Part shown: piece after piece, positions 4,694 through 64,000 of the stretch
How the letters are laid out: each line of letters begins with the position of its first letter
Position numbering within the stretch: position 1 is the stretch's first letter
Assembly: GCA_963402885.1 (NCBI GenBank)
Contig: OY727094.1
Location: 29,638,501 to 29,702,500, forward strand
Direction of reading: 5' to 3'
DNA from: Antedon bifida
Lineage: Eukaryota > Echinodermata > Crinoidea > Comatulida > Antedonidae
Length of the DNA stretch: 64,000 nucleotides
The notes under the pieces: model-generated
The model's database searches: none
Told to the model about the DNA's origin: nothing
Seen by the model: the letters and a program-made list of their open reading frames with translations, nothing else
Made by a program: the position numbers and the translations under genes

Positions 4694-4768
4694 ATCACCG
4701 CAGAATGTTTGTGTTTGATCTGGTGTGATGACCATGTTACTCATAATGAAGAAAGCATCAGTTTGCTG
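4694..4768 (-). CDS. P2X exon 3
   Basis: The exon encodes QTDAFFIMSNMVITPDQTQ followed by TFCGD, matching the P2X stretch between the VIPPQ signature and the first ectodomain cysteine (vertebrate form: FFVVTNLIVTPNQxQ). The donor is GAT|gtaagt. The acceptor is a CAGCAG tandem: the first AG gives a 75-nt exon ending at 4768, the second a 72-nt exon ending at 4765. The 72-nt form has the vertebrate exon 3 length and aligns without a gap. Confidence 0.9.
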
Positions 4769-7700: not shown

Positions 7701-10700
7701 CTATATAAACCAAAATAAAAGCTGCGATTACCTGTGGAGGTATTACATAATCAGAAACATCCCAAACTCGGTTGTATGGTTCCGTTTTCTCTATTGGTAT
7801 CGCTAAATCTGGAGCATTTGTAATATTTGTAAAAGATATTCCTTTAACTTTTGCTGTAGCAGTGCCTTCTACCATTTCAATATCTTGATATCCGTGGTTC
7901 CAAACTATCACATAACTACAGAAAAAATTGAAATATGTTGGTCACGTTTTTAAAAAAATATTCTTTACCTATATTTAATAACAGTATAGAACGCCTCGTT
8001 CGAGACACTTTATGTGGACATTTTCCTGTAAAACGAACAAAGGGCAACATATTTTTTACCACCACAGGCAAACCATAATGGGAAAGACTTTTAATAGGAC
8101 ACTTGTTAATTTGATAGAGGTTCTATTGTATTTTAACATGATGCAACTATTCTGAGGAAACCTTATTTTCATTTTTACCTTAGCTAAACATATTAAAATA
8201 TTATTTTGTTCTCTATACGACTATATGTGTGATTTCCTACAAAGATCAATGTGTTAAAGATGTATTGTCCCTTTGTCAAATTCCCAAAAAAAAAAAAAGA
8301 TTTCGAAAAAAAGTGGGTCATTTTGAAGTATAGTTATTAACTTCCACCAAAAATTAGTCGAAAAAAAAAATAATTTAACTGAAATACAGACGTTTTTTGG
8401 TTAAAAAAATAACTTTGACTTTCAGTCAAAGTTTTCGATCAAAACATATCTCATAATGCAACGCGCTTATTTGGCTACTCTGTATGCATAATCATAAAAC
8501 TTCTTTGCGATCTGTTTGAAAACACCTTCTCAACCGTGACGAGTTGTAAACAATCCTAATTAGCATCATGCATAATGTATACTCATGGTTTGAAATCTTT
8601 GTTTACTTTCGCTCGCGACGATTTTACAGACAAAATGTAATCAAATTAATTTAGCTGTTAATTACGTAAAATTGTTGTTTTTGGCTCGAATTTTCGACTT
8701 AAAGTGAATAACTTTAATATTACTTTGATATGGCCAATTTAAATTTAGAATATTTTGACCTTCATTTTTTTGTGTTTCAAGGGACAATACATCTTTAATG
8801 TTTACCAAATCCAATAAAATATTTTCTCCATATTCACTAAAAATGTTAAAAATCAATATAATAATGTGTACAATATTATGATAAAATATGACAAAATCCA
8901 TAAATGTTGATTGGGATCCAAGCCATAAAGCTTGGTCCACACTACAACGCAAGCCACAATGCAAGCAAATTGACCAATCACAAGCGACATTTTGAATAAT
9001 CTATCGATTTTGATTGGTCAATTCGCTTGCTTACGTTTCTTTCCTGGTGGGAACCATGCGTAAACATATTGAAGGTTTTAATCACGGGCAGTTTTGTTTG
9101 TAATAGTAAATGAACATCTTGTACGAAACACTGAGCTAGATGTAATAACACGTTTACAAAAAGAAAGAAATAAGAAGTGCGGAAAAACTGGTTGAGGATA
9201 AGACCCTCAACCAGATATATGAAGCTTGGTTGTGGGAGATTCAAGGTGTGCACGTGTGTCACAGCAGTACATGTATGCGATATTATTAATATTTACACAG
9301 AAAGTTCAAATCAAATCAATATTTATTTTATTTCTTCCACAAAAAAAAAACAAACATAATGCATAACAATTGAACAAAATATCTCTCAATATAGAAAAAT
9401 AAATTAATAAAAACATACTCCGATTGAATTTATTTTTAAAAAATGGAAGAGGTCTAAACTCAAGAAGAAACGCCGAATGAATAAATAATTGGCACTTGTA
9501 TAGCGAGAAAGCCCTTAAAAAGATAGGAACAACAAGTGCTGGAAAAACTGGTTGACTAGGATAAGGCCCTCAATCAATTGTAATGATTGGTTCTCACCAA
9601 CCTTGTGTGTTACAGCTGTACAGTATTTTCATCAATAACATGATTATGCGATATTATTAATATTTACACAGAATGTTGTAAGTTCAAATCAAATCAATAT
9701 TTATTTATTTCTTCCACAAAAAACATAATGTATAACAATGAAACAAAATATCTCTCAATTTAAAAAAAAATTAATAAAAACAGAGATATGCTTAAATACA
9801 AAAAATGGAAGAGGGCTTAACTCAAGAAGGAACGCCGAATAAATAAAGAATTTTCAAGTGGCACATGTAACACAATCTAATTAAAAAAAAACCATTTTAA
9901 AGAGCATAGTTGTTGTGATTCAAAGACAATTGTTCGATCTTCTAACAATCTGTTGGCGTTTCATCTTTTAACATAACAGCACACATGATAATAGAAAATT
10001 GGGAGTGCTTCATTTCCTTTGCTTTAATTCTTTAAGTCTTTAAGCTCAAAGGCATGTTCAATTTCAACCTTTACAAGCGATCACTCTCTAGACTTCATCA
10101 AGTTTACCTAACCTGTTCCACTTACATACATAATCAGTTGTTTGCTTTGTTTTAGCTAGTATTAAAACATAATAACACATACCTAATATTTTGTCTGAAA
10201 TGTTTATGATATTAGTATTCCTCATTGGTCTTATTATTACTATTAAATGGTCAGAAAAGTGCATTGTTATTAGCAATACTTAATTTCATTGTAAGTTAAT
10301 ATATAATATATAATGTGCTGTAAGCAAACGGTTTAACCTGTCCTGAATTACAATTACATCAGAAAGGTGTATTGTTCATGCTTGTTGAAAATTAAGATCA
10401 ATATTATTAAAGAATAAAATAATTCTAGTTTTATGTCAGCTACTCTGTCGCTCCAAAGATAGTTAGGACCCTAATGTTTAAGATGTTGTTTTAATCTGAC
10501 CTAGCAATTTTATACCCGAGTCTCGAACGGGATCATGCCTAAAGTCACACGAAATGACCGTGCAACCCTTCTCTCATATTGGTTATATTGGTTTGACATT
10601 TCTTTTTCTTATTTTTTCAAACGTTGTAAACGTGAGAGATTTATAGAGGGTTAGGTTAAGGGTAATAATACAGGTGTTTGACTTGTAACAGTGACACATG

Positions 10701-22700: not shown

Positions 22701-25700
22701 TACACACCGCCATTTCCATTTACCCCCTCCTTTAGCCCCTCCCTTTGTATCCAATCCCCCTGGTTTGACTCCCCTTTTATCCCCCTCCCTTTGAATACTC
22801 ATTCCGTTGGTCCTATTTCCCAGACAGTCGCGAGAATAAGTCTGGGGTTAGCCTATCAGACAGGATTTGAACCATCACCTGAGCAAACACCATTACAACC
22901 ACAACATCTCCACGCTGGTTGAAGCATTTAATTGTTCATATCTATGACATCATTCTCGGTGTTGCATGTATAATTTATACAGCTTTTTAACAAGGCAAAT
23001 TTGGTGGTACAGTGTCTCATAATGTATTGCATCTAATACCTTAACATAAGTTTAACCTTTAAACTTAACTTAATACAGGCGTCACATGTAGTACATGTGT
23101 GACACTGTATTATAGACTTTGCCTATGATACTGGACATATAATTCTATGTGGAGATACAGTACAAAGAATCAGTAGAAGCACAATTCCACTTCGGTTGAA
23201 ACATTTCAACGTTCGCATCTGCTGTGAAATCATTTTGGCAATAAAACTTTTTATTACAAAATAAGTGAACGTAAATCTCCAGTCACTGAAAATCTCAGTT
23301 TAAAATTATAATTACTGAGAAAACAGTTAAAAATTTGCATTTTAATAGGTATTGATGTAGTACGGCATCTCCATTGAATATTTTTATTCATTAATTTTTT
23401 TTTTTAATTGCTCCACAATTAATACCTTTTACATTTAAAATACACGTAGTATTAACAGATTTTCACTGATTTAGTGACTAATTATCATAAAACTATCAAT
23501 AGAAATTGAATTATGTATTTAATTTTTGCCTATGATTTAAATCTATGTTTTCACGGTCACGATTAAATACACTCAATCAATCGGCTTAACTTGCGTTCAA
23601 ACATGTTATATAACATTACTCTCTATTATTATTATCGGAGTTAATAACGGAGGTATAAAAGACTTACCGGATCACACGAATTTGTTTGCAACTCGGATAT
23701 GATTGGGATCAGCTTAAATCAGTTATATGCACTGCTCAATAATGGTAACAAAATAACCTCTGAAAACCATCGGAGTTATTAGGCGTACATCGGAGTTTCA
23801 TCGGAATTACACGAACGTCGGTTGTAACTCGGATATGGTTCACATCAGCTTAAATCGGTTCTATTCACGTTAAACTACCGTGTGAACACTGCTCAAATGG
23901 TCACACAATAACCTCTGTTATTAGGCGTACATCGGAGTGTTATCGGAGTTAACGAATTACACGAAAGTCGGTTGTAACTCGGATTATGATTCGGATTCTG
24001 ATTACCCTTAAAGGGTACCTCCGCGTTTAAAATTGCTATTGTCTGTTATAACATATACAACTTTGCAACAACATTGATAACCCCACTTATTATTGTAAAC
24101 CCGGAGTACCCCTTTAACGCAAAGTATTGCTATTACTGAACGCGTTATCCGTATCCGAAATAAAACATAATTACGGTGATTATTTGTATTCTGTAGATAC
24201 ATACACAAGGTACAGACAATTCATTAATTATGTAATTATACATAATGTATAACAATATTGAATTATAATCGCGAATTTTAAAACTATAACTCCAATGGCA
24301 AATCTAAGCAGATAGATTAGAGTAATTTATATTGATCAAGCTACGAATAATGGAACGAATGCCCACATGTTATACATTTCATCAATCTATTTTTAGAATT
24401 CGTATAATCATTAATTTTTTTTTATTATTATACAGTACCTGTTTTCGTTGAATTCGATTGTCCTAATTATCTTGGAAATATATATTTATACATCTGCAGG
24501 AGTTATTTAATTAATTTAATATTCTTATTCATTGTGGATTTCATCTGAAGTTTTATTTTAGGAATCAATTATTCAGAAGTTGTACAATAAGTGATTGATT
24601 GCAATATACGCTACATTTAAACTAAAAATATTATTTTAATAATTGCACATACCTATTGACACCACACTGTTTAATATAATAGTTCCGGTAATAATACATT
24701 ACTTAAGTAGGTCTAATAGAAAATAACCAACATTGTTACATTTCTATATTATTACCACCCTTATTGCATCCCAAAAGACTTTCATTGGCAGTAGGAAGAC
24801 CACAGTGATATCATGCTGCAAGCCAGCGTAGCCATGCTTAGTTACGCTCGTGTTTTTTTATGCCTAATTAATATAACCCATGTCATATATATAAACACAA
24901 GAGGCAAAGAACATTAATTCTAAACCGCCCGGTGATATACTGAAATTTAATTAATTAATTTGAAACGATAAAGATGAGGAAATCTGTGAGAATGAGAAAA
25001 AGTCGCCCCAACCGAGACTCGAACTCGGACCGCCTGCTTGATATGCAGATGTCCTAACCATTAGACCACTGGGGCTTTCATGGTATTGTTCGAACTCGAT
25101 TGGATAACGACTCTTTAACATTCTCGGCGTTAACATTAACGACTCTTTAACATTCATGTCATATATATATATATATATCTGTTGACATATTGTAGATCAG
25201 AGACGTACTGTCGTAATTGTACATCATTATATTTCTTGATTTAATTAAAAATATGGTATTAATATTAATATACAAACAAGTTTATGGAACTGGGTTAGAT
25301 GATTGTATACAACGACCACAAAAGGGTACTTAAAATGCATTGGCATGTGTTATGGAAATTATATATTAAATGATAGTTTTGTGTAGACCTACGGTAGTAG
25401 GCTACACTTCCCCCACGTTACATGGACGTCATGAATATACCAATATGTACATTAAGAATTAATTGTCTATCCTAGGTCTGCACAAAAATAAAAAAAATAT
25501 ACAAAATAATCAAAAACGTACAAGAGTAGGCCTACATATTCATTGACATGGTTCGTCCGTGTGACGGTATGTAAAGACACGTATTATGTTTGTTTATATT
25601 AATAATTAATGTTATATAGCTTACCCGACTACATATGTGATAATCAACAACTGTATAAGTCTATTAGTTGCACCGGCCTTCCAACTGTTAATATGAACCA

Positions 25701-25788
25701 TCTTAGGGGTGTCATACTCCAAGAACGAGTCTAATGTAGTTCTCCCCCAAATAGAGGCAGCAGTGTGGAATCTCTTAAATGACGACAT
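4694..25788 (-). CDS. P2X ATP-gated cation channel, 5' part (exons 1a, 2, 3; gene runs off the left side)
   Basis: P2X subunits form trimeric plasma-membrane cation channels opened by extracellular ATP. Three minus-strand exons join in phase: 25625-25788 (164 nt), 7732-7915 (184 nt) and 4694-4768 (75 nt, or 72 nt with the alternative acceptor). The joined protein has a cytosolic tail with EYDTPK at residues 24-29, a first membrane segment at about residues 42-62 (NRLIQLLIITYVVGYVIVWN), the ATP-phosphate-binding lysines in AKVKG (K77 and K79, matching vertebrate P2X4 K67 and K69), the family signature VWDVSDYVIPPQ at 105-116, and the first conserved ectodomain cysteine in QTQTFC. Exon borders fall where vertebrate P2X genes have them. 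The later exons (rest of the ectodomain, second membrane segment, C-terminus) should lie at lower coordinates; I did not find them between 1 and 4693. A second possible first exon is at 39059-39213. Family identity is close to certain; the vertebrate paralogue is not assignable. Confidence 0.9.
4769..7731 (-). other. P2X intron 2 (about 2.96 kb)
   Basis: Bounded by the exon 2 donor and exon 3 acceptor. AT-rich; no element or exon recognised. Confidence 0.7.
7732..7915 (-). CDS. P2X exon 2
   Basis: The exon encodes 61 codons plus one base completing the glycine split with exon 1. It holds the outer end of the first membrane segment (YVIVWNHGYQD), the two ATP-binding lysines in AKVKG, a possible N-glycosylation site (FTNITN) and the signature RVWDVSDYVIPPQ. 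The acceptor is ttttttctgtag|TTATG and the donor is CCACAG|gtaatc. The residues between FTNITN and VWD look a little longer than in vertebrate P2X4. Confidence 0.93.
8254..8798. repeat. Family A inverted-repeat element, longest copy
   Basis: Ends are TTAAAGATGTATTGTCCC and GGGACAATACATCTTTAA, exact inverses. Subterminal arms are A/T-rich and roughly inverted. No coding capacity is seen. Lies in P2X intron 1. Confidence 0.7.
8937..9057. repeat. Family C element
   Basis: AAAGCTTGGTCCACACTACA at the left, GACCAATCACAAGCGAC in the body, CCTGGTGGGAACCATG at the right. Confidence 0.55.
9168..9862. repeat. Tandem duplication, two diverged units of about 330 bp
   Basis: Unit 1 (9168-9497) and unit 2 (9528-9862) share GGAAAAACTGGTTGA, CGATATTATTAATATTTACA, TCAAATCAAATCAATATTTA, CAAAATATCTCTCAAT and AAACGCCGAAT-like ends. 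The TTATTTCTTCCAC stretch resembles a retroelement tail read from the other strand. Confidence 0.7.
12274..12610. repeat. Minisatellite, about 22-bp unit
   Basis: Units such as CCCTTTACTCTAACATTAAT and CCCCTTATTCTAACAATAAA repeat about 15 times with length changes. Confidence 0.8.
13588..13797. repeat. Family E repeat
   Basis: Contains TGCTGTATCTCCACAGTTTT, TCATATGTGATACCTGTATC and GGCTGTCACATGTGATACTG, motifs shared by the other family E copies. Confidence 0.5.
14400..14645 (-). repeat. tRNA-derived SINE
   Basis: The tRNA head spans 14572-14645 on the minus strand: acceptor arms GGAGTTG/CAACTCC pair perfectly, box A TAGCCGAGTGG matches the consensus, and box B GGTTCAATTCC differs by one base. 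A GTC triplet sits in the presumed anticodon loop, but the anticodon stem is weak. A body (CAGTCCACTCAGCTGTAACT and onward to about 14400) follows in the same orientation, as in many invertebrate tRNA-SINEs. A (TA)n run lies just upstream at 14652-14675. Confidence 0.6.
14815..14955. repeat. Family D element, degraded
   Basis: Contains CAGGGGACATCCCTATAG, GAGGGTACACCTTTTCG and CAGGGGACATTCTTATTAAA. Confidence 0.4.
15650..15787. repeat. Family B element, degraded copy
   Basis: Contains ATGGACACGATGACGTAATC, CATATTTGGGCACATTACAC and the terminal AGACAGAGCTTTA of family B. The left end is eroded. Confidence 0.55.
17150..17440 (+). repeat. G-rich low-complexity stretch (GGTGGT, GGGGG runs)
   Basis: Runs such as GGGTGGTGGTGGTGATACCGG and GGGTGGGGGGTG, with loosely repeated ACCGG...TTTTG units. 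The open frames here follow from base composition; no protein family is recognised. Confidence 0.55.
18215..18420. repeat. Family E repeat
   Basis: Contains TGTATCTCCACATATAGGAT, GATACATATGTGGCAGTGTA and TTTGCCTATGATACTGTACA. Confidence 0.5.
18895..19060. repeat. Family E repeat
   Basis: Contains CATAGGCAAATTGTATAATA, CAGTGTCACATCATAGCAC and CATCACATGTGATGCTGTAT. Confidence 0.5.
20534..20560. repeat. Perfect palindrome, 13-bp arms with one central base
   Basis: ACCAGGGAGTTGT, A, ACAACTCCCTGGT. The octamer ATGACCAG overlaps its left end and recurs at its right end. Confidence 0.85.
21444..21525. repeat. Family D element
   Basis: CCCTTATTAAGGGTACACCT and TCCCTTAATAAAGGTGTCTC face each other as inverted arms around GTCCTG. 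Confidence 0.45.
21564..21730. repeat. Family B element with internal tandem expansion
   Basis: The unit ATGTCCAGATATGGTAGTGAT is repeated inside the element, and the right end GATAGTGTAGACAGAGCTTT is intact. Other copies have this internal block once. Confidence 0.65.
22995..23175. repeat. Family E repeat
   Basis: CAGGCGTCACATGTAGTACA and ACATGTGTGACACTGTATTA make a palindrome, followed by TTTGCCTATGATACTGG and TGGAGATACAGTACAAAG. Confidence 0.55.
23630..24000. repeat. Three imperfect tandem units with TCGGAGTTA motifs
   Basis: Shared pieces are AATAACCTCTG, TTATTAGGCGTACATCGGAG, ATTACACGAA.GTCGGTTGTAACTCGGAT and ATCAGCTTAAATC. Units start at about 23630, 23753 and 23909. Confidence 0.6.
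24009..24118. repeat. Family G short inverted-repeat element
   Basis: AAAGGGTACCTCCGCGTTTA at the left is the near-inverse of TAAACCCGGAGTACCCCTTT at the right; about 110 bp, no coding capacity. Confidence 0.6.
24997..25001 (-). terminator. Pol III terminator of the tRNA
   Basis: Five T residues on the minus strand directly after the tRNA 3' end (ACTTTTTCTC). Confidence 0.6.
25004..25075 (-). tRNA. tRNA gene with AUC anticodon (Asp codon GAU) in a Glu-like body
   Basis: The 72-nt minus-strand sequence folds into a full cloverleaf. The acceptor stem GCCCCAG/TTGGGGC has a final G-U pair; the D stem is GTCT/GGAC, the anticodon stem TCTGC/GCAGG, the variable loop CGGT, and the T stem CCGAG/CTCGG around TTCGAGT; the discriminator base is G. 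Box A (TGGTCTAATGG) and box B (AGTTCGAGTCT) are present, and TTTTT follows within four bases as a Pol III terminator. The anticodon loop ATATCAA puts ATC at positions 34-36 after the normal U33, but A32 is unusual. D-arm and T-arm resemble tRNA-Glu. It could be a real tRNA, a drifted pseudogene, or the head of a SINE; I see no repeat body beside it. Confidence 0.65.
25625..25788 (-). CDS. P2X exon 1a (start codon, N-terminal tail, first membrane segment)
   Basis: The exon encodes 54 residues plus two bases (GG) and ends at a gtaagc donor; the first base of exon 2 completes glycine 55. It contains FLEYDTPKMV, the P2X N-terminal signature with the conserved T-P-K phosphorylation motif, then the membrane segment RLIQLLIITYVVG. 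I place the start at the ATG whose complement is 25786-25788 (MSSFKRF...), giving a 21-residue tail before FLEYDTP. An in-frame ATG at 25831-25833 is possible, but a TATATAAA at 25851-25858 would put transcription start close to or downstream of it. Confidence 0.87.
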
Positions 25789-25850
25789 AATGATAGCTTC
25801 CTTTATAAAAAGATCTTCTGTTAAAACACTCAACAGATAACATACAACGA

Positions 25851-25858
25851 TTTATATA
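25851..25858 (-). promoter_or_regulatory. TATA box candidate for P2X exon 1a
   Basis: On the minus strand the sequence reads TATATAAA, 63 nt upstream of the chosen start codon of exon 1a. A normal TATA spacing would put the transcription start near 25825, which favours the ATG at 25788 over the one at 25833. TATA-like words are common by chance in AT-rich DNA. Confidence 0.35.
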
Positions 25859-27126
25859 CACGTGGTCACACAAGTGAAAACGCAATAATCACCCGAATTT
25901 GTTCCAATTTTAGAAATCTCTAAAATTCGTAAAGGAGCACCAACGATCCTGGAAGGTATGACAACTAGAGTTCCATAGAAAGTGAAGTACATTGCATGAT
26001 TAAAAGTTTCGGCGATCGGCACAATAATCCTACTGTAGAACTTATAAATGCCGGTTTTATTCCTTCAGAGATTTAATAAATTACTGATATTTATCGCCGA
26101 ACGTCGTCGTCCAAAGTCGGGTCCACCGTCGTCGATTCACATGGCTGTGTTTTAAATTCAATAGCTTAAGATACTTTAGTTTTTTGTTTTACTTTGGAAA
26201 ACTAGTGCTGGAAATGGATATACTTGCATAGACACTTTCTATAAGTCTTGTGCTCATCCGAAATGAACGTAATGCGTAGTTTAGATTTCAGCAGTGAAAA
26301 GACTTGATTAGTTTATGTACCGTCTTGACTATAGGGGGCGCTATACTGTTCTAAAATGGATAAAATTTAAACATCACAATTAGATATTTGTCCTTGATGT
26401 ATCGTCTTTATCATGTATTAACCATTCTCTACGTGTTGTTATTATTTACTAATTAATAGTCATCTACGTCAGTTATTAGACAGACGTTGTTGTTTATAGC
26501 AAAACAAGTATGATAGTTCAGTGGTAAGGCTCCTGGGAAACGATAAGTAACCTATCATGCTACGTGTATGGTAATGTGTGAATAATTCGGCCCAGTGGGA
26601 TCGCCATCCCTGACACTGATCTTATCTGAAATTCAGCAATAGTGTTTTATTATTAAAATTATGGTATTTGGAGTCCTTTTTATAATGTGTGACGTTATTT
26701 CTTCATTTTTTTCCATATTTTCTTATATTTTTCTCTGTATATATATAAATAAGTAATCTCTGTGGACATTTTAGATTTTTCACATTTCTTTTCCAGTGTG
26801 TATTGTATGAAACTTTATTTCATGATTTTCTCTGTGATATATATCTTTTTTTCAAAGGGTCTTACGACTACAGAAAATAAACTTTTCTCTGTAAGATCCC
26901 TGCAATATTGTATATAACAATGTAAATACATATTGCTAAATAAATGTGAACCAATCGTGAACCGATATTATACTCCTTTTTTATTTGAAGTTCTTGTCAC
27001 TATTGTTCTTCGAGCAAGATGTTTTTTTTTACAATTTCAATCCAGTTTGTTGCCTATATATATACTACAAACTTCTACGTACTTGTACATTTAAGTAAGT
27101 TTGCTTGAGCTATGACGTCATTAACG

Positions 27127-27452
27127 TAAAGGTAATTGACCCCCTGTTTTTGTTGAATGTGCCATTTTAATCTCACATAATAGTTATTCACTTTGACCAA
27201 AAATTGGATCCGAAAACAAAATAATTTACTTGAAAAAAAATCTGCATTTAAAGCAAAAAAAATATTATATTGACTGGAAGTCTTTGTTGAACTTAATCGT
27301 TTATTTTGTCTTTTTACAAATGAAAACCTTTTTTTTTTTAGTTTTTTTTCTACGGAAGTGATTACCTTTATTAAAACTGCGAAATGGCCTACTTAAAGTC
27401 TTTTTATCAATCTTCATTTTTTATGTTTTTGGGGGACAATACATCTTTTAAA
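27127..27452. repeat. Family A element, inverted relative to the 57329 copy
   Basis: The right end GGGGGACAATACATCTTTTA is clear and the left end (TAAAGGTAATTGACCCCC) is degenerate. Internal sequence around CACATAATAGTTATTCACTT matches the complement of the copy at 57329-57674. Confidence 0.6.
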
Positions 27453-28615
27453 CATACGTTAAAATATTGTATGTCAGGGTACATTAAGTGTAGTCTATAA
27501 TGTACTATAATGATTCCAATTGAATCTGTATCCATAAGTTTCGTTAAATTCGATCATTTTAATTCCAGTCAAAGAATATCTAATACACAGTAAATGATAG
27601 ACATGTAATGTGAAATAAGGGAGAAGTTGAAATCTACTGTCTGTCCTGTAGGCTATGGGCTGATAATCACACACATAGGGGGCGCTAGGACAACATTATT
27701 TTACACACACTTTATCCACGAGCGGGTTTGTACTGTGAAAAATGCCACCTGGAGACTAATTTGGATACATTCTAGGGACGAAAATTGTTTGTCTGAGATA
27801 CATTCCTCAGTATGTGTAGTCCGCGTGTGCTTTTAACATTTTTTTGCCATTTGGATTATACATTATAACGGGAGACGCATTAAACAAAAGCACTTTGTTT
27901 GGATTTTAAAAGCCGTTTGGAAACAAGAGGGACAAGTACTACGTACTTCCGTCGTTCGTCAGGTGGGTGATAAATATTTGTTGTTATGAACATTTAAAAC
28001 AAATCGAATATCAGATAAACCTCACTCGTTTGTCGTCCTCTATTATTCGATCAGCTGCGCTGTGTGCAGATGTTTCTATTTCCTGTATTATTTTCTAATG
28101 ATTTATTGTCGGTTTGTTATCGATCTCTTATCGAATACTCTCGGTATTTTCATATTAAAAACAGTGATTGTAAAAACTATACTCAAAGGTGTTTTGTGAA
28201 TTGTGTATAACTATAAAAGGTATCATAATTCACGTTAAAGTATTAGGGAAGGTAATTTCATACCGTATGGCTAATTGCATCAGTATTGTTTTGAAACTTA
28301 CCGCCCTCTATCGTTTCTAGCTCTGTTGCATTGCAAGTATGCAAATTAGTTATGGCGCCATCTATTTCTACAATCGAAACTTTACGCTTACGTTCCATTT
28401 AGTTTGTTCGGTAAGAGCCTTCGTTCATTTGTTATAAAATAATTAAATTGGGGATTTTGTTCTTGTTATATGGCCTATATAAAAAAAAATATTTTTTATA
28501 GGACTTTCAGTTAATTTACAACTATAAATAGCATATAACAAAACTGAAATTAGACACGTTATAACCGGTTACATTTGAATACGTAATTGTAAATGTCAAA
28601 ATATATACCATAGAA

Positions 28616-28765
28616 TCCCTAGCGGACACTTTCGGGACGCAACAAAGTGTCCTCAATATCGGTTGCCCTTGAATAGGAGTGTCAGAATATGGGATTGGTC
28701 GTAGTGTTACACCATATTGGCACTCGTTTCATTTTGTTTCACGAGAAAGTGTCCTGTTAATCATT
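28616..28765. repeat. Family D element
   Basis: AGCGGACACTTTCGGGACGC and GAGAAAGTGTCCTGTTAATC form rough inverted ends around AAAGTGTCCTCAATATCGG. Confidence 0.45.
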
Positions 28766-30260
28766 ATAAAAAATAATAATTTTTTATCGTAGCTTTTATT
28801 TTAAAAATTGAAATCAGTTCAGAAGAGCTAAGCATTCCAATTACTTATTTGTAGTATTAGTAGTATAACAAATGATTGGTAAAACATATCACGAGGCTAA
28901 ACACGGTGAGGGGGGCGGGGAATGTGAATCTAAAGAAGTTTGCCAAATTGTGATTTTCGTAACGTTGAGCTCTACTATTAATACTAGCCTATAGTGAAAA
29001 AATGTGACTGCAGAACACTGAGCTTGCCTTGCCAAGATAGGAACTCGTAACAGTCCTTTATATCTGGCTGCGACAAATACCAACAGTACTGTACTATGTA
29101 CACATTCTCCTCGACGTGCAGTGTCTGTTAATGGGCGTGTAACTGTCATGTCGCAGCCACAGATAAACCCTTTGAACTCCATAGCGGTATCATCCTGTTG
29201 TTAGATTGCCTTGCTGTAACCTTTTACATCACATGTATAATACTTTTAAAACACGCAATGTTGTTATTCGGATAGCAGCAGCTTAATTTCACAAAGTATG
29301 TATAGTAACGTTACGAATAACGTAAATTATTAGGATAATTTTTTTCTTTTGATAAATTTATATAACATAATTTTTTTCAACAGTTTTAAATGTTAATTTG
29401 AATTTTTCTATACTTGCAGTTGTGAAATTTATATATAATGCGTTAACTCGTTTACACGCGTGAACTTATTATTAAATTTGACATTATGATATTAATCTAG
29501 GATTTTTTACGCGCCATCTTGGTGAAAAAAATTACGACTTGCGTGTGATGACTTTTAAACGCGTCAAAATGAAAGAAAAATGAGTATAATACGTTCACTC
29601 GTATGTAGACGAGTTTGTGTTTTCAACCATATGATTGATTTCCCCTCAACCATTATATCTGGATTATGAAAAAGCAATTGATTCATTGCATTTATAGGTA
29701 AATAGAATGTATACAATTTAAAGTCCTGGCTAAGGCACTAGATCGTTATATTGATTAATGTATAGGAAACGCGGCCGTGTTATCTAAGTTAAAAATTTAA
29801 CATGCGAGTGAGTGACCTGATTTCTTAACATTGTTCGTTCTGTTATTGTGTTTTTTTTTAATATACAATTAATCAACATTAACTTTAATGATATTGTAGA
29901 GAATGATGCTTTATCTATACTAAACCAGCAACATTGAATATTGTCTAGACTAAACGTTCCAGACAATACAATGTCAATATTTATACGCACTAATTCAAGG
30001 TTATATAATTATAAAATTTAGTAACTATACATTTAAATCCTAATTACTTGAAACGTTATATATAGTGAGGCAACCGTCATTAATTAAGAACAAAAAACGC
30101 AAGGACGCGTACCAGAGTAGACACAACCAAAGTAATTTAGCTATTACCAGCGATGTCTAGACTGATTAGTTAAAATGATACATCTTCATATATAAAATTA
30201 AAACTTAAATTTGAATCGATTTTGAAACCACGCTTTTTTTATATGCAATATTGAATATTG

Positions 30261-30376
30261 CAAAACTAGTTTGGCAAGAAAAAGTGTAATGTGCCCAAAT
30301 GTAGTAGTGATATGACGTCATCGTGTCTATTATGGGTACATCATATTTTGTTTGTCACATTATAGTTTGATAGACT
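30261..30376. repeat. Family B element, eroded ends
   Basis: Core GTGATATGACGTCATCGTGT flanked by GTAATGTGCCCAAATG and GGGTACATCATATT; the terminal AGCTCTGTC repeats are lost. Confidence 0.55.
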
Positions 30377-30797
30377 TTTATTTAGATTACGTAGTCCATA
30401 AATAAGGACTGGTTTGATAGATACAGCCTTTTTAAATTTAAGCACTTCTTAACCTTAAGAAAAGATATCGATAAATGCCATTCTGGATATGTAGCATGTG
30501 ACTTTTTATTTAGTCGATGGCACAGACAAAGCATATTCAAACGCTAAACTGTCGCTAAAGGCGCACTTACTGCTCTTTAAAGCTCATTTTTTGCGACTAT
30601 TGCGCTCTTTGAACCATCGGTCTAATGCTTAATCTAGCTAAGTTTGCCGAAAGGTTAATTGATTGGCTGAATGAGGTGGCCACCTTATATAGAAACCATT
30701 AATTGATCTTGAGTTGTTATGTGTCGTCTAGCATGACACGAACAATTATCATAACGAATCATATTATATCCACGTGCCAATTCAACACTGCTCAATT

Positions 30798-30979
30798 AAG
30801 CTTGGTTCCCACTAGAACTTAACGCAAGGACGTAAACGCAACGCAAGCGTTTTAACCAATGACAAGCGAAGTTATAGACAGTTAGCAATCACAAGCGAAT
30901 AAGCCATCGCTTGTGATTAGTCAATTCGATTGCGTTGCGTTACGTCCTTGTGTTGCGTCGCTAGTGAGAACCACGCTTT
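30798..30979. repeat. Family C element
   Basis: AAGCTTGGTTCCCACTAGAA at the left and CTAGTGAGAACCACGCTTTA at the right, with inverted ACGCAACGCAAG and CTTGTGATTAGTCAATTCG body segments. Confidence 0.65.
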
Positions 30980-31070
30980 ACTAAACACATTTCGACTTTG
31001 TCGACAAAGTTGACGCCGGTTTACAAAAATCATGGTACCCGAGTCTGTAGCTGTTACTAGATGTATTCTT

Positions 31071-31219
31071 AAGCTTGGTTCTCACTAGGACGCAACGCAA
31101 GGACGTAGACGCAACGTGAGTTGACCAATCATAAGCGATGGATTATTCGAACTGTCGCTTGTCATTGGTCAACACGCTTGCGTTGCGTTTACGTCACGTC
31201 CTAGTGAGAACCAAGCTTT
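31071..31219. repeat. Family C element, nearly perfect hairpin
   Basis: AAGCTTGGTTCTCACTAGGA is mirrored by TCCTAGTGAGAACCAAGCTT. The arms stay inverse through CAACGC, GACCAATCATAAGCGA and TCGCTTGTCATTGGTC. It lies about 90 bp from the 30798 copy. Confidence 0.7.
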
Positions 31220-32164
31220 ACTGACTTTTTCATCTAGAAACGAGTCAGCCGACTCGCGATGACTTGCAATAGTCAGTTAGAATCTATCTAGCTGCAGAAT
31301 CGGGTGATCATGGATAATTGTGTTGTTTACAGAATATACAAACAAAGGATAACAGTGTATACATTGAAACATTTCAGTCTCATTCAGATACAAATTATTA
31401 CCTCCTTGTTAGGTCATTAGTAAATAGAAAGAAACTGATAGTAAGTGAGTGTATTGAAATGTAGATTCGCCATGAGGTCGACGACTTTATAATCATGTGA
31501 GGTTATCCCCTATTCATTAAGGCTATAAATGCCTTGGGAAAATTTTACATTACTGCCTGTATACATTAATATTAAGTCATTATTGAATTAGACCTACGCA
31601 TGTATTTGCACACTGCTTAAGTATTTTTTTTTAACCGTAGACTTGCCGGTAAGATTAGAGCAGACATTAGTATGCCTCAACAGTTGTTGCGTCACTGATT
31701 TTATAGAAGTTTACTTGTAAATGTTCTTAATCTTTATACTTGTCATATTCCAGCCTTATTTATTACAGTATGTTGGGTTTTTCAATTTCATCATGGGTGT
31801 TATATACTGTAAAGTGTAGCGTTTTCATTATTGTACCTTATGTACTTGTATAGAGTCGCACAGCTTACTCGGGTTGCCAGCGCAAAGTTCACAGTATACT
31901 ATTTGGGAATTTTTACTTTCCGTATTCACAGACTAATATACTGTATTTAACAAATTGTGCTGGGGTTTTGTTTTTTTTTTTTTTTTTTGCCATTGTGACA
32001 TGGGTGTTCTATAAAGTGCAGCCTTTTCTTATCTATCTTATGTAATTGTTAGTTTTGTTTAGTCGCATAGTATACTTATGAGTATGTATTTTAAAACCAG
32101 CCAGCGTGAAGATCCCAATATGCATGAGCTTAATCACATTTAACCCCACCTTCCTACTTGTAAT

Positions 32165-32350
32165 CTAGACTAAATAACGCGTATTGTATAACGCAAACGC
32201 GTTCTCGTTCGAATAAGCCGTGCATTTTATACCGCAAACGCGTTCTCGTTCGAATAAGCCGTGTATTGTATACCGCAAACGCGTTCTCGTTCGAATAAAG
32301 CCGTGAAATGCTCACCCCTTGAACGCGTTCTCGTTCGAACAAAGCCGTGA
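32165..32350. repeat. CpG-rich tandem repeat, 41-46 bp unit, about four copies
   Basis: The core AAACGCGTTCTCGTTCGAAT, followed by AAGCCGTG, recurs at 32193, 32234, 32275 and 32321. It has several CpGs per unit in otherwise AT-rich DNA. Confidence 0.75.
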
Positions 32351-33987
32351 CATTTGAATGGTAAGTTAAAACAACATTTCTTTCACCGATCCTTGATCAA
32401 CTAGGACTCATTGTATATATTTCAGCATGTTTTCCTGGAAAAGTTTCAACAGTTTTAATTTACATATTACTATTACTGTGCAGCTCTAATTTGTCCATTA
32501 GTTAAAATACATTTCAATGGCAATATAACTTCAGCAGTTTACTTAAAAGCAATCTTACAGCTCAAATTAGCTCTAAAGATTTGAGACATATTTTGTAATT
32601 AGTTATAAGACACGGTACGGTGCAAGTGTCAGATACAAACGGTGTTGAAATCACATTTTTGTAGTAATTTTCGGATTCGTTATAATAATAATGAATCTAC
32701 TATATATACCAAACATAATTGAGGATGAATTACTACATTTGTTTCATGCTTTTTGATAATGTGTATAATCTTCGTGATCGTCGGCTATAATATCGTCACT
32801 ACGTCATCGTCATTAAAGTAGTTCCTTTTCATCTTATTGAGACAATAGAGCCCGATACTTAGGGGACCAAGTGGACCAGAACACCAAGGTAACCCCCTAC
32901 TCTTTCCGAAAGATGCACTGTTTTTTTTTTATTTAAAGATAGGTACACTGGCCTCCAACATGTTTAATAATCGAGATCTTCTTGTTCAAAAACCGTATGG
33001 CTGTGGGTTAAACCGCTCGGGGCACCTCGACTTGAAATCGTTGTCACGTACCGAGAAGAAAACAAGTTTACCTGCGCTCCTAATACCTTTAATATTACTT
33101 GTAGTACCATTATTTGAATACGGTGTCAAAATGCATGTTTCCCAATCGCTTATACCATTTCTGTTTCATGGTTTCGCTGATGTATGTAATGTTGGCAATC
33201 GTCGATGTTTGTTTTGTATCGTCGCCACGTACAAAACAAGTTGAAGCGCGCTTATAAAACCCGTACTAGTTTTATCGCCATTTTCAACGTGAGTGTCAAA
33301 ATGTGTGTTTTATATCATTGACGGAATAAAGAGCACATAAATCTAAAGGACTAACAGTATAATCCAGTATCTGAGTCGTAATAAGCGTTAGTCTAGATAA
33401 CTAATCCATTACTTCTTTGGGATAATCTAGTGATAGACTATACATTGTATCAATTTGTCAATATTCATCACGTGTCCTTCTCCACAATTTTTTATTTTTT
33501 TTTTTTTTTGCTTTTAGTGAAGTGTTGTTGAATCTCTACAATTCGTTCTTCGCGTCTTGTATTACATTTATGTTAGTATCCGTTGCATATTAATACTGTA
33601 TACTGTCATACGACATATCTACATTTACAACGTGTTTTCAATCGTTTTCCAGGAAAATGTTAAATTCTCCATGACTGCTTGAGTTTTGATTACGTAATGA
33701 AACTATTGTCTTAATGTTTTATTTTTACAACCGTAATCCTATATCTGTGTAAATGACAATTCTTAATTGACATAATCTTATCAGATGATATGTAGGACAT
33801 AGCTATATATTTGGAATAACACATATAATGTGATTGATGCTCAGTTAGATGTTGTTGTAGTAGGAAAGTCCGACCACACCTAAAAGCCACTTTCCTCCTC
33901 CACAGCACTCCATTCTAAATTAACACCTACCTATCTAGCTAACATGCTATACATGTGTTAAATCGTACCAAGCAATACTGAAACAGT

Positions 33988-34135
33988 TCAGTAGAACTCC
34001 GATTTAGGGGACACATGCAGGACCCAACACGGTGTCTCATTGAGGTTGGCGATAGGATATATTTCTTCAATTATTCCACGAAAGGATCCCCTTAATAGGG
34101 GTGTCCCCTGAATAAAGGTGTTCCTAGTGTCCAAA
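33988..34135. repeat. Family D element, best copy
   Basis: Ends TTTAGGGGACACATGCAGGA and TAGGGGTGTCCCCTGAATAA, with CACGGTGTCTCATTGAGGTT between. A shorter relic lies at about 13363-13425. Confidence 0.5.
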
Positions 34136-35142
34136 AGAGAGCTTATACGGTTCCTCTGTTTAAAGAGTGAGTATCGTACATGAAATTATTGTATGTAATT
34201 TGTCTTTGTGAAAATTAGCATCTAACAATGAGAAAATGCATTTAAAATACATATTTTATTTAATTATTCTACATCAATAAAATCATACAATTTTTTTTAA
34301 ATATAAAAATAATGAAATAAACAAAAAATCAATAAATAATAATTAGATCGTCATCGTAAAGGTAAACATACATGTAACAGATATATGAGCTATTTATTTT
34401 GATTGATTATAGTTTTAGAGCATGTGATAGAATTTAATGAAATTGTAATTTAGGCATGTTACAAAATGACTTAGTAGCATTTGAAATACACATTTTATTA
34501 TGATCCAATGTATACATTTTTATTAGTAATATTTAATTGGTTTCAAAAAGCCTCCAGTACAATTCAAGTGTATCTATTATTGTAGTACTGTGCATTGGGT
34601 ACTTGCGTGTATTTTCGAGTAAAGTTCGAGGGCTAACATTATTATTGGCATATTCATTCATGATGTTTCTTTTATATTATACTCATGTGTTGTTCTAACA
34701 CAAGGTAACTTTAACAAGGCCATATACATGGCTATACATTCGCGTGCGCAAATTTGAGTTAGTGTTTACCGACCGACCGACCGACATAGTGAGCTGTAGA
34801 GTCGCTTGTTTAATGGTTCTGTACCTATTATATTATATATTTCTGTAGTGTTACTGTAACTGAATTTATTTCGGAATTATTATATTCATAGTAACATATT
34901 AACAGTAGGATTTTCATATCAGCAGCTCATTCATTCAATTTGTATTTATTCCACGTTTCTCTGTATTGTGATTAATTTTATTATCCCATCAATCCATAAT
35001 TCAAATACCCAATCGTCTATCAACAATCTGTTGCCTTCCTTCTTTATAGCTGGTTCATTTGAGTAAAATTATTTTTCATTTGTATGTTATATTGTAGTCT
35101 GTGTTATTTTATTGGTTGAGTGGCCATAATATCGGTAATGGT

Positions 35143-35450
35143 TCGGCTCACTCTGGTGGTTCGTCTTCCCGAATAAGGACTACAAATCGTAGGTTCATTA
35201 TACACAATAGATTTTTAAAAGTACATCTTTCGAGACGAGTAGGGGGTTACATCGGTGTACTAGTTCAATATTCTGGTTGTGTGTATTTTAATAAACCTAG
35301 TACATCTTTGATCGAGACGAGTGTAAGGTTACCCCGGTGTACTAGTTCAATATTCTGATTGTGGTTGTGGGTATTTTAATCAACCTAGTACATCTTTCGA
35401 GACGAGTAGGGGGTTACATCGATGTACTAGTTCAATATTTTGACTGTGGA
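35143..35450 (+). repeat. SINE copy 3, headless, with its 3' unit present three times in tandem
   Basis: The copy begins near the GGCTCACTC at the head's 3' end and continues through the ATAAGGACTACAAATCGTAG body. The tail unit starting AGTACATCTTT and containing GAGACGAGT then repeats at 35220-35298, 35299-35386 and 35387-35450. Copies at 60335 and 61119 have this unit once. Confidence 0.7.
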
Positions 35451-36499
35451 ATTTAGTGCAATGAAGATGAAAATTGATAAAGATGAAATAATATTATACC
35501 AACCGTAACGATAGACCTAATCATTATGTGTTATACATCAAACTCATATTTGTCATCCGTGATGTTTAATGATTAAACATTGCGAAGTATGTTCCTACAT
35601 AATATAAAAACTTTGCAATTCATTTCTCATTGTAAGCTCTCAACGTAATATTGATTCATGTTTGCCAAAAATGTAAAATGTAAAGACGATTGTGTTGAAT
35701 AAAATCAATAAATACATATAATGCTTACAGAGTGGTGGTGGTGGTGATTACGACATAGTGATAGTCATCAACACAACAGTGATAACAATTAGGTTTGTAG
35801 TGCTAATGTTGGTTTAATGAAGATTGGTGCAATAAGTATCTATTAAATTAGAAATTATTGTGAGGGTGATGATGGCGACCGCGTTGTTGCGTCATGGTCA
35901 CTATCTCCTTATGATGATATTTTTTTTTTTTTTATTGACTTTTTATAAATTGTTTTTGTATTGTATTTAAATTTATATCCGTTTTTGTCGACAGGGCCAC
36001 AATGCAAAACAGGTATATTCAACTTGATTGTGTATAATCCTGTATAAATAATATGTTGTTAAATAAATAAATAAATTATAAACCATGCACCAATAGGAGT
36101 GATGTTCGTAAAATTATAACGTTTAAGCTTTGTATTTAGTATATACAAACTATATAATAAGGAAACCTGGTAATTTAGTGCTATCTAGTAATTAACTAAA
36201 GGCTAAGCGAAGAAAGTAATATTTAATTAATTATAACAGGTTACGGCTCTATAATTCCTCAAGGACTATTACGTTGTGAACTGAAAGTAACGGTCGTGCT
36301 ATATTACTTGGTTGTTTGTATTCCATACAGAATTGCTTGTATAAAAATGCGATTATAATTAGGAAGATCATTGATTACTAATTAATGTGATAAAAAAATT
36401 TAAGAGGTAATATTAATAGTGCATTTGCATCTGATAAGCTATTCGTCTTTTGTTAAAGACTGATTATGGTTGGTCTTAAGGCAGATAATGTCCTTGAAA

Positions 36500-36625
36500 T
36501 AGCTGTACAAAAGCAATCACCAGTGCTGTATTTCCACAATATTTTAGTCGGTATGATAGGTAAATTCCGTAATACAGCATCACATGTTTTTCACCTGTAA
36601 TACCTTTATCTCGGAATTACAGTAC
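36500..36625. repeat. Family E repeat beside the 18-bp satellite
   Basis: GTGCTGTATTTCCACAATAT, TACAGCATCACATGTTTTTC and ACCTGTAATACCTTTATCTC. Confidence 0.45.
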
Positions 36626-36787
36626 CGCGATTCTGCTACGCATCCGCTGTCAGACTTTATTTCAGTGTTAACTGTTAGTATAAGACGTCTATGCGATCTA
36701 GTTCAGAGTTACAGTCTAATTTGTTCATTCTATTTATTCGGATCGTCAACATTCATTCAGGAAAGAGTGATATTTAAGCGTATTATT

Positions 36788-37255
36788 GTAATTTCACTCT
36801 TTCCTGTAATTTCACTCTTTCCTGTAATTTCACTCTTTCTTGTAATTTCACTCTTTCCTGTAATTTCACTCTTTCTTGTAATTTCACTCTTTTCTGTAAT
36901 TTCACTCTTTCCTGTAATTTCACTCTTTCTTGTAATTTCACTCTTTCCTGTAATTTCACTCTTTCTTGTAATTTCACTCTTTCCTGTAATTTCACTCTTT
37001 CTTGTAATTTCACTCTTTCTTGTAATTTCACTCTTTCCTGTAATTTCACTCTTTCTTGTAATTTCACTCTTTCCTGTAATTTCACTCTTTCTTGTAATTT
37101 CACTCTTTCCTGTAATTTCACTCTTTCTTGTAATTTCACTCTTTCTTGTAATTTCACTCTTTCCTGTAATTTCACTCTTTCCTGTAATTTCACTCTTTCC
37201 TGTAATTTCACTCTTTCCTGTAATTTCACTCTTTCCTGTAATTTCACTCTTTCCT
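36788..37255. repeat. 18-bp satellite (GTAATTTCACTCTTTCCT), 26 units, with higher-order structure
   Basis: Twenty-six exact-length units differ almost only at one C/T position (TTTCCTG or TTTCTTG; unit 6 is TTTTCTG). Units 7-13 and 14-20 show the same order C,T,C,T,C,T,T, a 126-bp higher-order unit duplicated in tandem. Two degenerate units follow to about 37290. Because 18 is a multiple of 3 and the unit lacks stops, long frames open on both strands; these are not genes. An inverse of the unit (CAGGAAAGAGTGA) sits just outside at 36757. Confidence 0.9.
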
Positions 37256-38039
37256 GTAATTTCAATATTCCTTGTCATTTTACTATTTTGTTGTTTTCTG
37301 TTACTGCTTCTGCATCCATCCATTCCACGATCCCCCATCTTGTTTCTCTTCAATGCTTCATGTCTTCAACGACGTCTCTCCATGTGTCTGAAACTTCGCT
37401 GCTTTTTGTATGTTATTGATTTCTGTAATCATCTGATTTTCTTTTGGGTACAGGTGTTATTCTGTAATCCAATTTCAGGACAGGGTTGTTGCCTGGACCA
37501 TTTCCACCGATCTGCCCCACCCCCTGTTACCGCCGGACCAACCACATAGCAGATGTCTCAACGTTACAATAGGTCTCGCTTGGATTTTACTTCCACGTAG
37601 GAAAATCTCAAACACGCGTCAGTCTTTAAAGTGAGAATTTTAGTGTTACGTAATAATATTATTTACAGAAATTATTTGAATTAAAATTAATACGAAGGAA
37701 CTGTATTAATACACTAATCGGCTATTGACTAAATCCAATGTACGTAGGTAGGAAACTGAGGTATACAGTTATCCTCCAACCGCCTGTAGGCATATATAAT
37801 TTTCTTGTAATTTTCATACAGCACGACTAATTTTGCTATCTAAAATGCTCATAGCACTGAACAAATCAAAATAAATATTAGCACACTTGCGCTGAAGAGT
37901 TTTTGTACATTACCATTACCCGATAACATTCCGACGGACATGCTCTGAATAAAAAAAAAACGAGTACATGTTGGCATTTCAGTTACAAACGCACGATGAC
38001 GATAGATTGATTAATCTATCATAAAGCCCGTCTCATTGA

Positions 38040-38195
38040 TTGGGTACTCTTCAGTTTCATAGGCAAACTCTGTACACTGTCACATATGAATCACATGTGA
38101 CACCTGTTTCATAGGCTATGCCTAACCTTAACATAATACAGGTGCTACATACGTGTGTGACACTGTATTAAGTAATGTGATACTCAACAGATACT
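38040..38195. repeat. Family E repeat, two palindromic halves
   Basis: CTGTCACATATGAATCACAT and GACACCTGTTTCATAGG are followed by ATACAGGTGCTACATACGTG and TGTGACACTGTATTA. Similar relics lie near 42930-42990 and 63560-63680. Confidence 0.5.
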
Positions 38196-39058
38196 GCCAA
38201 GTGGAAATAGTAACATTTCATTCGTTTATTCATTTATTCTTTATTTCGTAACGGTTAAAAGTTGTATTGTAGAGCTGTGGGAATGATGTCGGCCTACAGA
38301 AGAAATGCCATGATACTAGTATCGGTGCGCGCGATTTTAGTTTGTGTTTGTACTCCGATGTTTTTTAAGTTAGTATTGATTCAAATTGTCGTAGGCCTAT
38401 ACAAGACGTGACTTTTTCTGAAAACTAATTCTGCAAAAATCAATTTGATTGTAAAACATATCTATAAGTATAATATAAATATCAATTTGTGTAGATGTTT
38501 ATATAGATATAGATATGGAAATTCTTAAGTTATTCGTGTACATCTCTGTGCATGTCTCAATCTAGTATTGCCTATCTAATAATCTTAAGGTTGTCTGATT
38601 GCTTTTATACTTGAAATTTGATTTCGTATAAGAGTGTACGAAGACTATATACTATGGATTAGACATATTAATAAATATATAGATTGTGTTTTTTTTTATT
38701 TTACAAAGCATTCGAACCGTAAATAAGAGATGATGGATATAGTAATTACAATGTAGAAACTTAATTATATAAAGGTATCGACGGAGTCGTAAAATGGAGG
38801 ATGTACCTTGGAGAACGGTACCACCACAGGCTGAGTGCTTAATTCTGGTTTTAACTCGTCAAATTTGGCGGTAAAACGGCCCGTGTTTCAGATGTGTAAT
38901 TCTATATAGGCCTAGTTCAATGCGTACCGGGCATCTTGATTAATTTTGTCGTAATTTCTGGTAAAACCTTTCGGATATCGAAGGCAGTTTAGTGGGCCAT
39001 TCCAATATCTACTGTGTAAATTAAATATACATAATATATACAGTAATAATAACCTTAC

Positions 39059-39213
39059 CTGAATATATATACAATAAGACCAAGTTGAATAATCCTATTT
39101 AAGAGTCCAGCTTTCCAATTTTGTATTCTCACCATTTGTGGCGTGTCATACTCAAGAAAAGCATCTAAATGTAACCAATACCACAGTGGCAATATTCGCC
39201 TTCTCCTTGCCAT
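39059..39213 (-). CDS. Second P2X first exon (exon 1b): alternative 5' exon, or first exon of a lost or separate copy
   Basis: The exon encodes 51 residues plus two bases (AG) and ends at TTCAG|gtaagg, the same phase as exon 1a. The start is fixed by an in-frame TAG two codons upstream of the ATG. The tail MARRRRILPLWYWLHLDA leads into FLEYDTPQMVRI, then a membrane segment NRIIQLGLIVYIF. By my count 21 of 33 positions from FLEYDTP onward match exon 1a. If spliced to 7732-7915 the junction residue becomes serine instead of glycine. The conserved K/R after T-P is glutamine here. I found no second exon 2 or 3 between 26 and 39 kb, so shared use of the downstream exons is the simplest reading. 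A relic or a separate gene with unrecognised exons remains possible. Confidence 0.82.
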
Positions 39214-49790: not shown

Positions 49791-50248
49791 TTATCTTTTT
49801 ATTAACTTAATTGTTACAACTATAGATGCTGTAAACACAATGAACATGCATAGTATCAGCATGATTCTGTCAAGTACACTCGCTAGATCCGTCCATGTTT
49901 CCAAAAGTTCTTCCTCCTTCTTCCTCTCGTCGATCTGCTCGTTAAACTTTCTGATATCTGCCATTATCTCTTTGAGTTCATCTGAAGGGTTAACGCCATT
50001 GTTCTTCTTAGTGATGTCTGTGATGACTACGGGAGAAGGATGCACTCTTTTGAAGCATTGTGATGAACCCATGTCGGTACACTTCTGGTCCTTATAAACG
50101 CCCAAGAATGAACCTAAGCCTCTCACGATGTATGTGTTGATGACAGCATTTACGGGCTTCTTGTGTCTTCCGTAATGAACTTTTAGAATGATAGACGTCG
50201 CTACCACAGATATGCACCCCAGTGAGATTATGAGTGTGAAGAAGCTTG
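49791..50248 (-). CDS. nAChR exon 6 (M3, intracellular loop, M4, stop)
   Basis: The acceptor is ttcttttttttacag|CAAGCTTC. The exon encodes M3 (ASFFTLIISLGCISVVATSI), a loop of about 100 residues with the conserved post-M3 stretch IVRGLGSFL, a charged MA helix (DELKEIMADIRKFNEQIDER), and M4 (VLDRIMLILCMFIVFTASIV), then KLIKR and TAA. The intracellular loop is short for a nicotinic subunit. Confidence 0.94.
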
Positions 50249-52294: not shown

Positions 52295-52330
<36 letters not shown>

Positions 52331-63297: not shown

Positions 63298-64000
63298 CTG
63301 AAACAAAGCAATATATCAGAATAAAGAATAGGTACTTATTTATACGTGTAATTGTTAATCGTTGCCGATAGAGTGACATATTTATGCCCGTCGGCGTGCC
63401 ATAGACAGTACCATATGGTAGTCTATATATCCATGTGTGGAAATATATAGAAATAGACTTGTCTCCGTGCACACACTAAAATATCTTACGAAAATGCGTT
63501 TAATACAGTATTATTTGTTGGTACAGTCACCCAATTCTCTGTAATATTTAAAGTATTATATGTCCAGTGTGATAACCCCTTACTGATATACAGTGTCACA
63601 TATGTGTCACACTGTATGTGACGGTTAAGTGTAGGTCCTATCGTCACAAGTACACTTGCGAAACAGAATGTGTCTATACTGTACATATTGCGGTATCTAG
63701 AATCGGCTATTCTATTTACAATATCGATATCTATAAGATTGTTATGACCGGAAAGTATTGCCGTAATACCAGCATTGAATGTTGAACTTTATAACCTAAC
63801 CTTTCTGGTTTTAGATAGATATAAATTGAGTTGAATGTAATTGTGGCGTACGTTTATGCTGTCGTCATAGCGTGTAAATTGACATTCGATGTTGAATCAT
63901 GTCACAAATTAACTTAAATTTACTCAAAATGAAATTTTAAATTGATTACAGTTTATTGTAATTATGTGTTATTCTTCCAATGACAAAATATTAAAAGAAA
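63298..64000 (-). other. Sulfotransferase intron, incomplete
   Basis: Intron upstream of the last sulfotransferase exon; no further coding exon recognised. It contains a family E palindrome near 63585-63625, where ACAGTGTCACATATGTG is followed by its near-perfect inverse. Confidence 0.6.

Follow-up and report, generated by a model that had tools for sequence, protein, structure and literature searches.

The window, the whole 64,000-nucleotide stretch of Antedon bifida DNA analysed here, carries the first exons of a P2X receptor gene on its minus strand (Table 1). Our gene model comprises ten coding exons, with two versions of exon 1. Exons 1b, 1a, 2 and 3 lie in the window, and seven further exons follow in the 20 kb to its left, from C7:29631086 down to about 29624.6 kb. 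Exons 1-5 are open when joined by script, and the phases of the remaining exons agree on comparison by eye. Against solved chains, the joined protein matched 35 sequences at E<=0.001. The best of these was the human P2X4 chain 9bqh (E = 4.7e-107 over residues 22-396), and the names among the matches listed are P2X purinoceptors, except for one "putative uncharacterized protein". Exon 2 by itself matches the Pfam P2X_receptor family (PF00864), and the Pfam matches on exons 1a, 1b and 2, the genome Pfam search and the solved chains together extend the family membership over the N-tail, TM1, ectodomain and TM2. Because its exons are open and in phase and the joined protein matches a P2X4 chain, the gene looks complete. 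Human P2X4 has 12 exons (PMC3360091), and relative to these some exons of the window gene seem to have been merged.

Table 1. Features at and around the P2X locus (window positions, except for the entry prefixed C7)
Feature	Position	Strand	Details
Exon 3	4694..4768	(-)	Exact start uncertain (CAGCAG acceptor)
Exon 2, rest of TM1 and start of ectodomain	7732..7915	(-)	184 b; Pfam match; sole exon 2 found for the gene
Exon 1a, P2X coding first exon	25625..25788	(-)	YDTPK motif; Pfam match, ATG, donor
CACGTG abutting TATATAAA	25851..25864	(-)	76 to 63 bases before the 1a ATG; putative core promoter by consensus match alone
Possible decayed third first exon	32141..32188	(-)	16-codon weak match with in-frame stop; first-exon profile 5.6 bits
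Exon 1b, P2X coding first exon	39059..39213	(-)	YDTPQ replacing YDTPK; Pfam match, ATG, donor
Cys-loop transmembrane region	49794-50345	(-)	2.4e-6
Cys-loop ligand-binding domain and transmembrane region	51573-52151	(-)	5.7e-29 and 6.9e-15
Weak ligand-binding match	58304-58573	(-)	0.0011, under the cut-off
Sulfotransfer_2 match	62473-63315	(-)	3.5e-55; 281-residue open frame
Paralogous compact P2X gene	C7:31877793-31883004	(+)	About 5.2 kb; one first exon found; 2.2 Mb away

Each of the two first exons has its own ATG, the FLEYDTP motif and a GT donor, at exactly the coordinates given in the preliminary description of this locus. The coding sequence of exon 1a runs from the ATG at 25788 to 25625 (164 b, or 54 codons and 2 b), and that of exon 1b from the ATG at 39213 to 39059 (155 b, or 51 codons and 2 b). 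The donors are CGG/GTAAGC in 1a and CAG/GTAAGG in 1b, the slash marking the exon boundary. Both exons stop two bases into a codon, as had been read before, and the first base of the exon at 7915-7732(-) completes it. The leftover bases GG of 1a or AG of 1b join the first T of exon 2 at 7915, behind the acceptor TTCTGTAG/T, to encode Gly or Ser. An A stands at -3 of either ATG. Upstream in-frame stops are found 66 bases before the ATG of 1a and, as a TAG, 9 bases before that of 1b. Searched alone, exon 1a matches Pfam P2X_receptor at 3.3e-7 (30.1 bits). Exon 1b alone matches at 4.1e-6 in just 31 residues, and its 26.5 bits fall 0.5 bit short of the curated cut-off of 27 bits. The two exons lie 13.3 kb apart, and the distance to exon 2 is 17.7 kb from 1a and 31.1 kb from 1b. 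The interval between them holds an 18-base minisatellite (36787-37264, 26.6 copies, 96%), which is open in several frames and produces long false open reading frames. Immediately ahead of TM1 both exons also encode WKAG, in which a Trp takes the place of a basic residue; the corresponding letters are KKVG in the paralogue and RKVG or KKVG in the P2X4 chains compared.

The surroundings of the two start codons differ. The CACGTG and the abutting TATATAAA form a plausible core promoter for 1a. No E-box/TATA pair of this type was found in the 300 bases upstream of 1b, where the only TATAA is at -219. Two acceptor-like YAG sites, ending 33 and 6 bases ahead of the 1b ATG, suggest that an untranslated exon may precede 1b. 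Like the promoter elements, these sites are matches to a consensus. Further upstream on the same strand, parts of a Cys-loop receptor gene, nicotinic-type by our reading, are spread over 49794-58573 (-). This is the next gene found upstream in a scan that covered 8 of 29 open frames; its last recognised frame ends near 49.8 kb, leaving about 10 kb between it and 1b for the control of 1b.

The genome searches found two P2X genes, the window gene and the paralogue. A Pfam search of the 315.6-Mb assembly, which scores the best candidates only, gave 12 matches, six in the window gene and six in the paralogue; at E<=0.001 exon 1a is among them and exon 1b is absent. With 1b plus exon 2 as the genome query and E up to 10, six rows were returned, namely three first exons (1a, 1b and the paralogue's), two second exons (the window gene's and the paralogue's) and one row at E = 2.33. 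The proteins of the paralogue and the window gene, as joined here, are identical at 188 of 394 aligned residues. The paralogue carries the YDTPK motif, and the phase between its exons 1 and 2 equals that of the window gene.

Over 104 kb, tblastn at E<=10 with the gene's own protein (with 1a) yielded 11 exon rows, the ten exons plus 1b, and extra rows at 1.9 and 9.9. The paralogue's joined protein recovered 10 of those 11 exons, missing exon 4, with 1a at 1e-11, 1b at 1.7e-9 and extra rows at 3.5, 5.1 and 9.9. We took the extra rows at 1.9 and 9.9 (own protein) and at 5.1 and 9.9 (paralogue) as chance; the row at E = 3.5 falls at 32188-32111(-) and is considered below. The single exon set in these searches agrees with the earlier statement that there is no second exon 2 or 3. 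The P2X search over 26-39 kb and leftward that the preliminary description had proposed places the remaining exons left of the window and reveals no second set. No other exon 2 for 1b was found in the 315.6-Mb genome by Pfam or by the 1b plus exon 2 query, or in the 104 kb by tblastn. The gene has two coding first exons of equal phase and one downstream exon set.

The shared phase of 1a and 1b is in itself weak evidence that they serve the same gene, because the exon 1/2 boundary is conserved family-wide and any P2X first exon starts in phase. Human P2X7 exon 1 is reported to end at residue 42 (PMC9329894), and a review describes P2X exon-intron boundaries as strongly conserved (PMC3360091). 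The pattern of substitution between the exons is more informative. In a 33-codon core that we picked, from FLEYDTP to the exon end, 39 of 99 bases differ, with 13, 6 and 20 differences at codon positions 1, 2 and 3, and 21 of 33 residues are kept. Neutral placement of 39 changes keeps 10.8 residues on average and reached 21 in 0 of 200,000 runs; simulations started from 1b towards 1a gave 0 of 100,000. Over the whole aligned exon, with the N-tail aligned at the protein level, a choice that biases towards identity, 75 of 153 bases differ and 26 of 51 residues are kept (neutral mean 11.8; 0 of 50,000 runs). From the paralogue to 1a the result was again 0 of 100,000, and from the paralogue to 1b the observed 18 residues were reached in 78 of 100,000. 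All these simulations assign every change to a single branch, let no site be hit twice and are blind to recent loss. In addition, blastn with 7-base words at E<=1 gave no exon-to-exon match between 1a and 1b. Since residues have been kept far beyond neutral expectation, 1a and 1b were both protein-coding for most of their separate history, although 1b may have been lost recently.

We consider it probable that the locus is one P2X gene with two mutually exclusive coding first exons, used as alternative first exons and giving two N-tails and two inner TM1 halves. Transcripts would begin either distally, at 1b or upstream of it, or proximally, at 1a, and the first coding exon of either pre-mRNA would be spliced to the same exon 2. 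The two channel isoforms would then differ in the cytoplasmic N-tail and the inner half of TM1 and have the ectodomain, TM2 and C-tail in common. The preliminary description had offered alternative promoters or a tandem duplication. These options are not exclusive, as one concerns the present state and the other the origin. The long constraint on 1b and the finding of no other partner exon point to alternative use as the likely present state, and duplication of exon 1 is the likely, if unproven, origin.

The exon pair could also have arisen by exon shuffling, one first exon having come from another P2X gene, for example the paralogue 2.2 Mb away. We regard this as unlikely, and it would be compatible with alternative use now. 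The quartet log-likelihoods are nearly equal at -255.0 (1a+1b), -254.4 (1b+paralogue) and -257.7 (1a+paralogue), so that 1a+1b is not separated from 1b+paralogue, and the exclusively shared sites number 4 (1a/1b), 4 (1a/paralogue) and 2 (1b/paralogue). However, the 34 aligned sites behind these values are too few to decide, and the WKAG common to 1a and 1b sets them apart from the paralogue and the P2X4 chains compared. The flanks were compared as well. When the 3-kb flanks of 1a, on both sides, were compared with those of 1b by blastn, there was one notable match of 107 columns at 72%, between 23112-23007 and 38170-38072 on the minus strand. Most of the copy at 23007-23112 also aligns with its own reverse complement, and the copies match each other reversed over 35 bases. 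We rejected this match as a footprint of exon duplication and attribute it to a small MITE-like element of ~100 bases with inverted-repeat ends, of which one copy lies in the intron that follows 1a and the other follows 1b.

A further sequence may bear on the history of the pair. A profile of four first-exon cores, run over the 104 kb, ranked 32188-32141 third at 5.6 bits, behind 1a (75.5 bits) and 1b (72.9 bits), both of them members of the profile; the next place scored 1.3. The best score in a reversed-sequence control was -0.7 bits, and 2 of 60 random sequences of matched size and base make-up reached 5.6. The start of the stretch touches a 41-base tandem array at 32183-32355. It shares the strand of 1a and 1b and lies between them, which makes a decayed third first exon plausible, and we treat this identification as suggestive only. 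If it is truly a dead copy, the first exon would have been duplicated repeatedly at this locus, with 1b as a copy that stayed open.

Such a dead exon, if real, would mean that first exons can die here, and 1b itself might be the remnant of a duplicated P2X gene or a duplicated exon 1, recently silenced and no longer transcribed. This is quite unlikely in our judgement. It would fit the lack of a clear promoter at 1b, and between 1b and 1a there are just two other P2X or first-exon rows at E<=10 (3.5 and 9.9), so no exons 2 onwards of a second copy survive there. In contrast, the start, frame, donor and P2X core of 1b are open despite divergence from 1a beyond the reach of blastn at the settings above, and long neutral decay would hardly leave such an exon. 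At 5, 10 and 20% substitution, indels not counted, the probability that a neutral 1b still has its ATG, frame and GT is 0.50, 0.25 and 0.07. It is very improbable that 1b belongs to a separate P2X gene with its other exons unassembled or elsewhere, since, for all that assembly gaps are possible and the genome search scores best candidates, no third exon 2 was found in the 315.6 Mb and the P2X exons found by tblastn in the 104 kb downstream of 1b on its strand are the window gene's only.

If 1a and 1b are alternative first exons of one gene, as we favour, the isoforms would differ in a known N-terminal motif. YXTX(K/R) is present in the exon 1a isoform and absent from the exon 1b isoform. Published descriptions call the motif conserved among mammalian and Dictyostelium P2X receptors (PMC2704932) and across all P2X subtypes (PMC9329894); we treated it as conserved, not defining, and the family match is independent of it. 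Besides its TPQ, the exon 1b protein has a basic start, MARRRR, and a TM1 partly unlike that of 1a. The effect of such changes can be judged from P2X1 mutants (PMC2704932). There, R20C brought the peak current down to about two thirds, and the phorbol-ester effect was abolished by R20C, R20A and R20I; potentiation through mGluR1 was as in wild type in R20A and R20I. Of the 15 places in residues 16-30, 10 responded to cysteine with a changed desensitisation time; R20C was without this effect. The authors of that study hold that the local environment matters, not phosphorylation. By analogy, TPQ alone would speak for lost phorbol tuning, not for other kinetics, because the R20 mutants lose the phorbol effect and R20C keeps the desensitisation time.

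Other residues of the tail may matter too. By the residue letters of the table in PMC2704932, 1a and 1b also differ at P2X1 places 23, 25 and 26, and in P2X1 L23C slowed and R25C sped desensitisation. Where P2X1 has Lys27, both exons encode a Trp; in P2X1 a Cys there by itself abolished phorbol potentiation (PMC2704932). We infer that the isoforms may have different gating kinetics, or be regulated or trafficked differently, and that they may assemble into mixed trimers; we predict no direction of the difference. A bolder proposal, tentative and on the doubtful side, is that an old, selected exon pair switches TX(K/R) on (1a) or off (1b) and alters the tail residues before TM1, that promoter choice sets both regulation and desensitisation speed, and that rodents reached the layout independently with P2X7(k). 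The switch is weakened as an explanation because R20C keeps the desensitisation time and the Trp at the Lys27 place is found in both exons.

Among known systems, the paralogue shares the P2X family and the exon 1/2 phase with the window gene and differs in being compact, with one first exon found. The mitochondrial contig of this assembly (15,844 b) has, among 26 tRNA predictions of which some are surely false, a tRNA-Lys with anticodon CTT and the tRNA order Pro, -Gln, Asn, Leu, Trp, Cys, Met, which point to an echinoderm. Sea urchin and acorn worm are stated to have at least two P2X genes each and numerous isoforms (PMC7943599). The two P2X genes of this genome fit that statement, in which, as far as the text consulted goes, the source of the isoforms is not given. 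In mostly non-subscription literature, searched by titles and abstract starts and including invertebrate, echinoderm and sea urchin work, none of the matches listed concerned alternative first exons or promoters of P2X outside P2X7.

For the layout, the precedent is rodent P2X7(k) (P2rx7), in which an alternative coding first exon supplies another N-terminus and most of TM1 and shares a single exon 2 with the standard form through the conserved exon 1/2 junction (PMC9329894, PMC3360091, PMC3407210). The first exons there encode 39 residues in P2X7(k) and 42 in the standard form, compared with 51 codons in 1b and 54 in 1a here. In rodents exon 1' sits within intron 1 and follows the standard exon, whereas here the motif-departing 1b comes first. 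Expression and functional tests support P2X7(k), whereas the use of 1b is predicted from sequence. P2X7(k) is described as fully functional, with higher agonist sensitivity and slower deactivation (PMC3360091), and as gated by ADP-ribosylation (PMC3407210), and P2X7K isoforms had been identified solely in rodents (PMC9329894). The two layouts presumably arose independently, in different lineages. If 1b is used, it would provide a natural P2X with TPQ replacing TX(K/R) for testing the role of the motif. In addition, the exchange of the P2X N-tail and TM1 by first-exon choice would then have arisen at least twice, in rodents and in an echinoderm, and this segment would stand out as one where ATP-gated channels are preferentially tuned.
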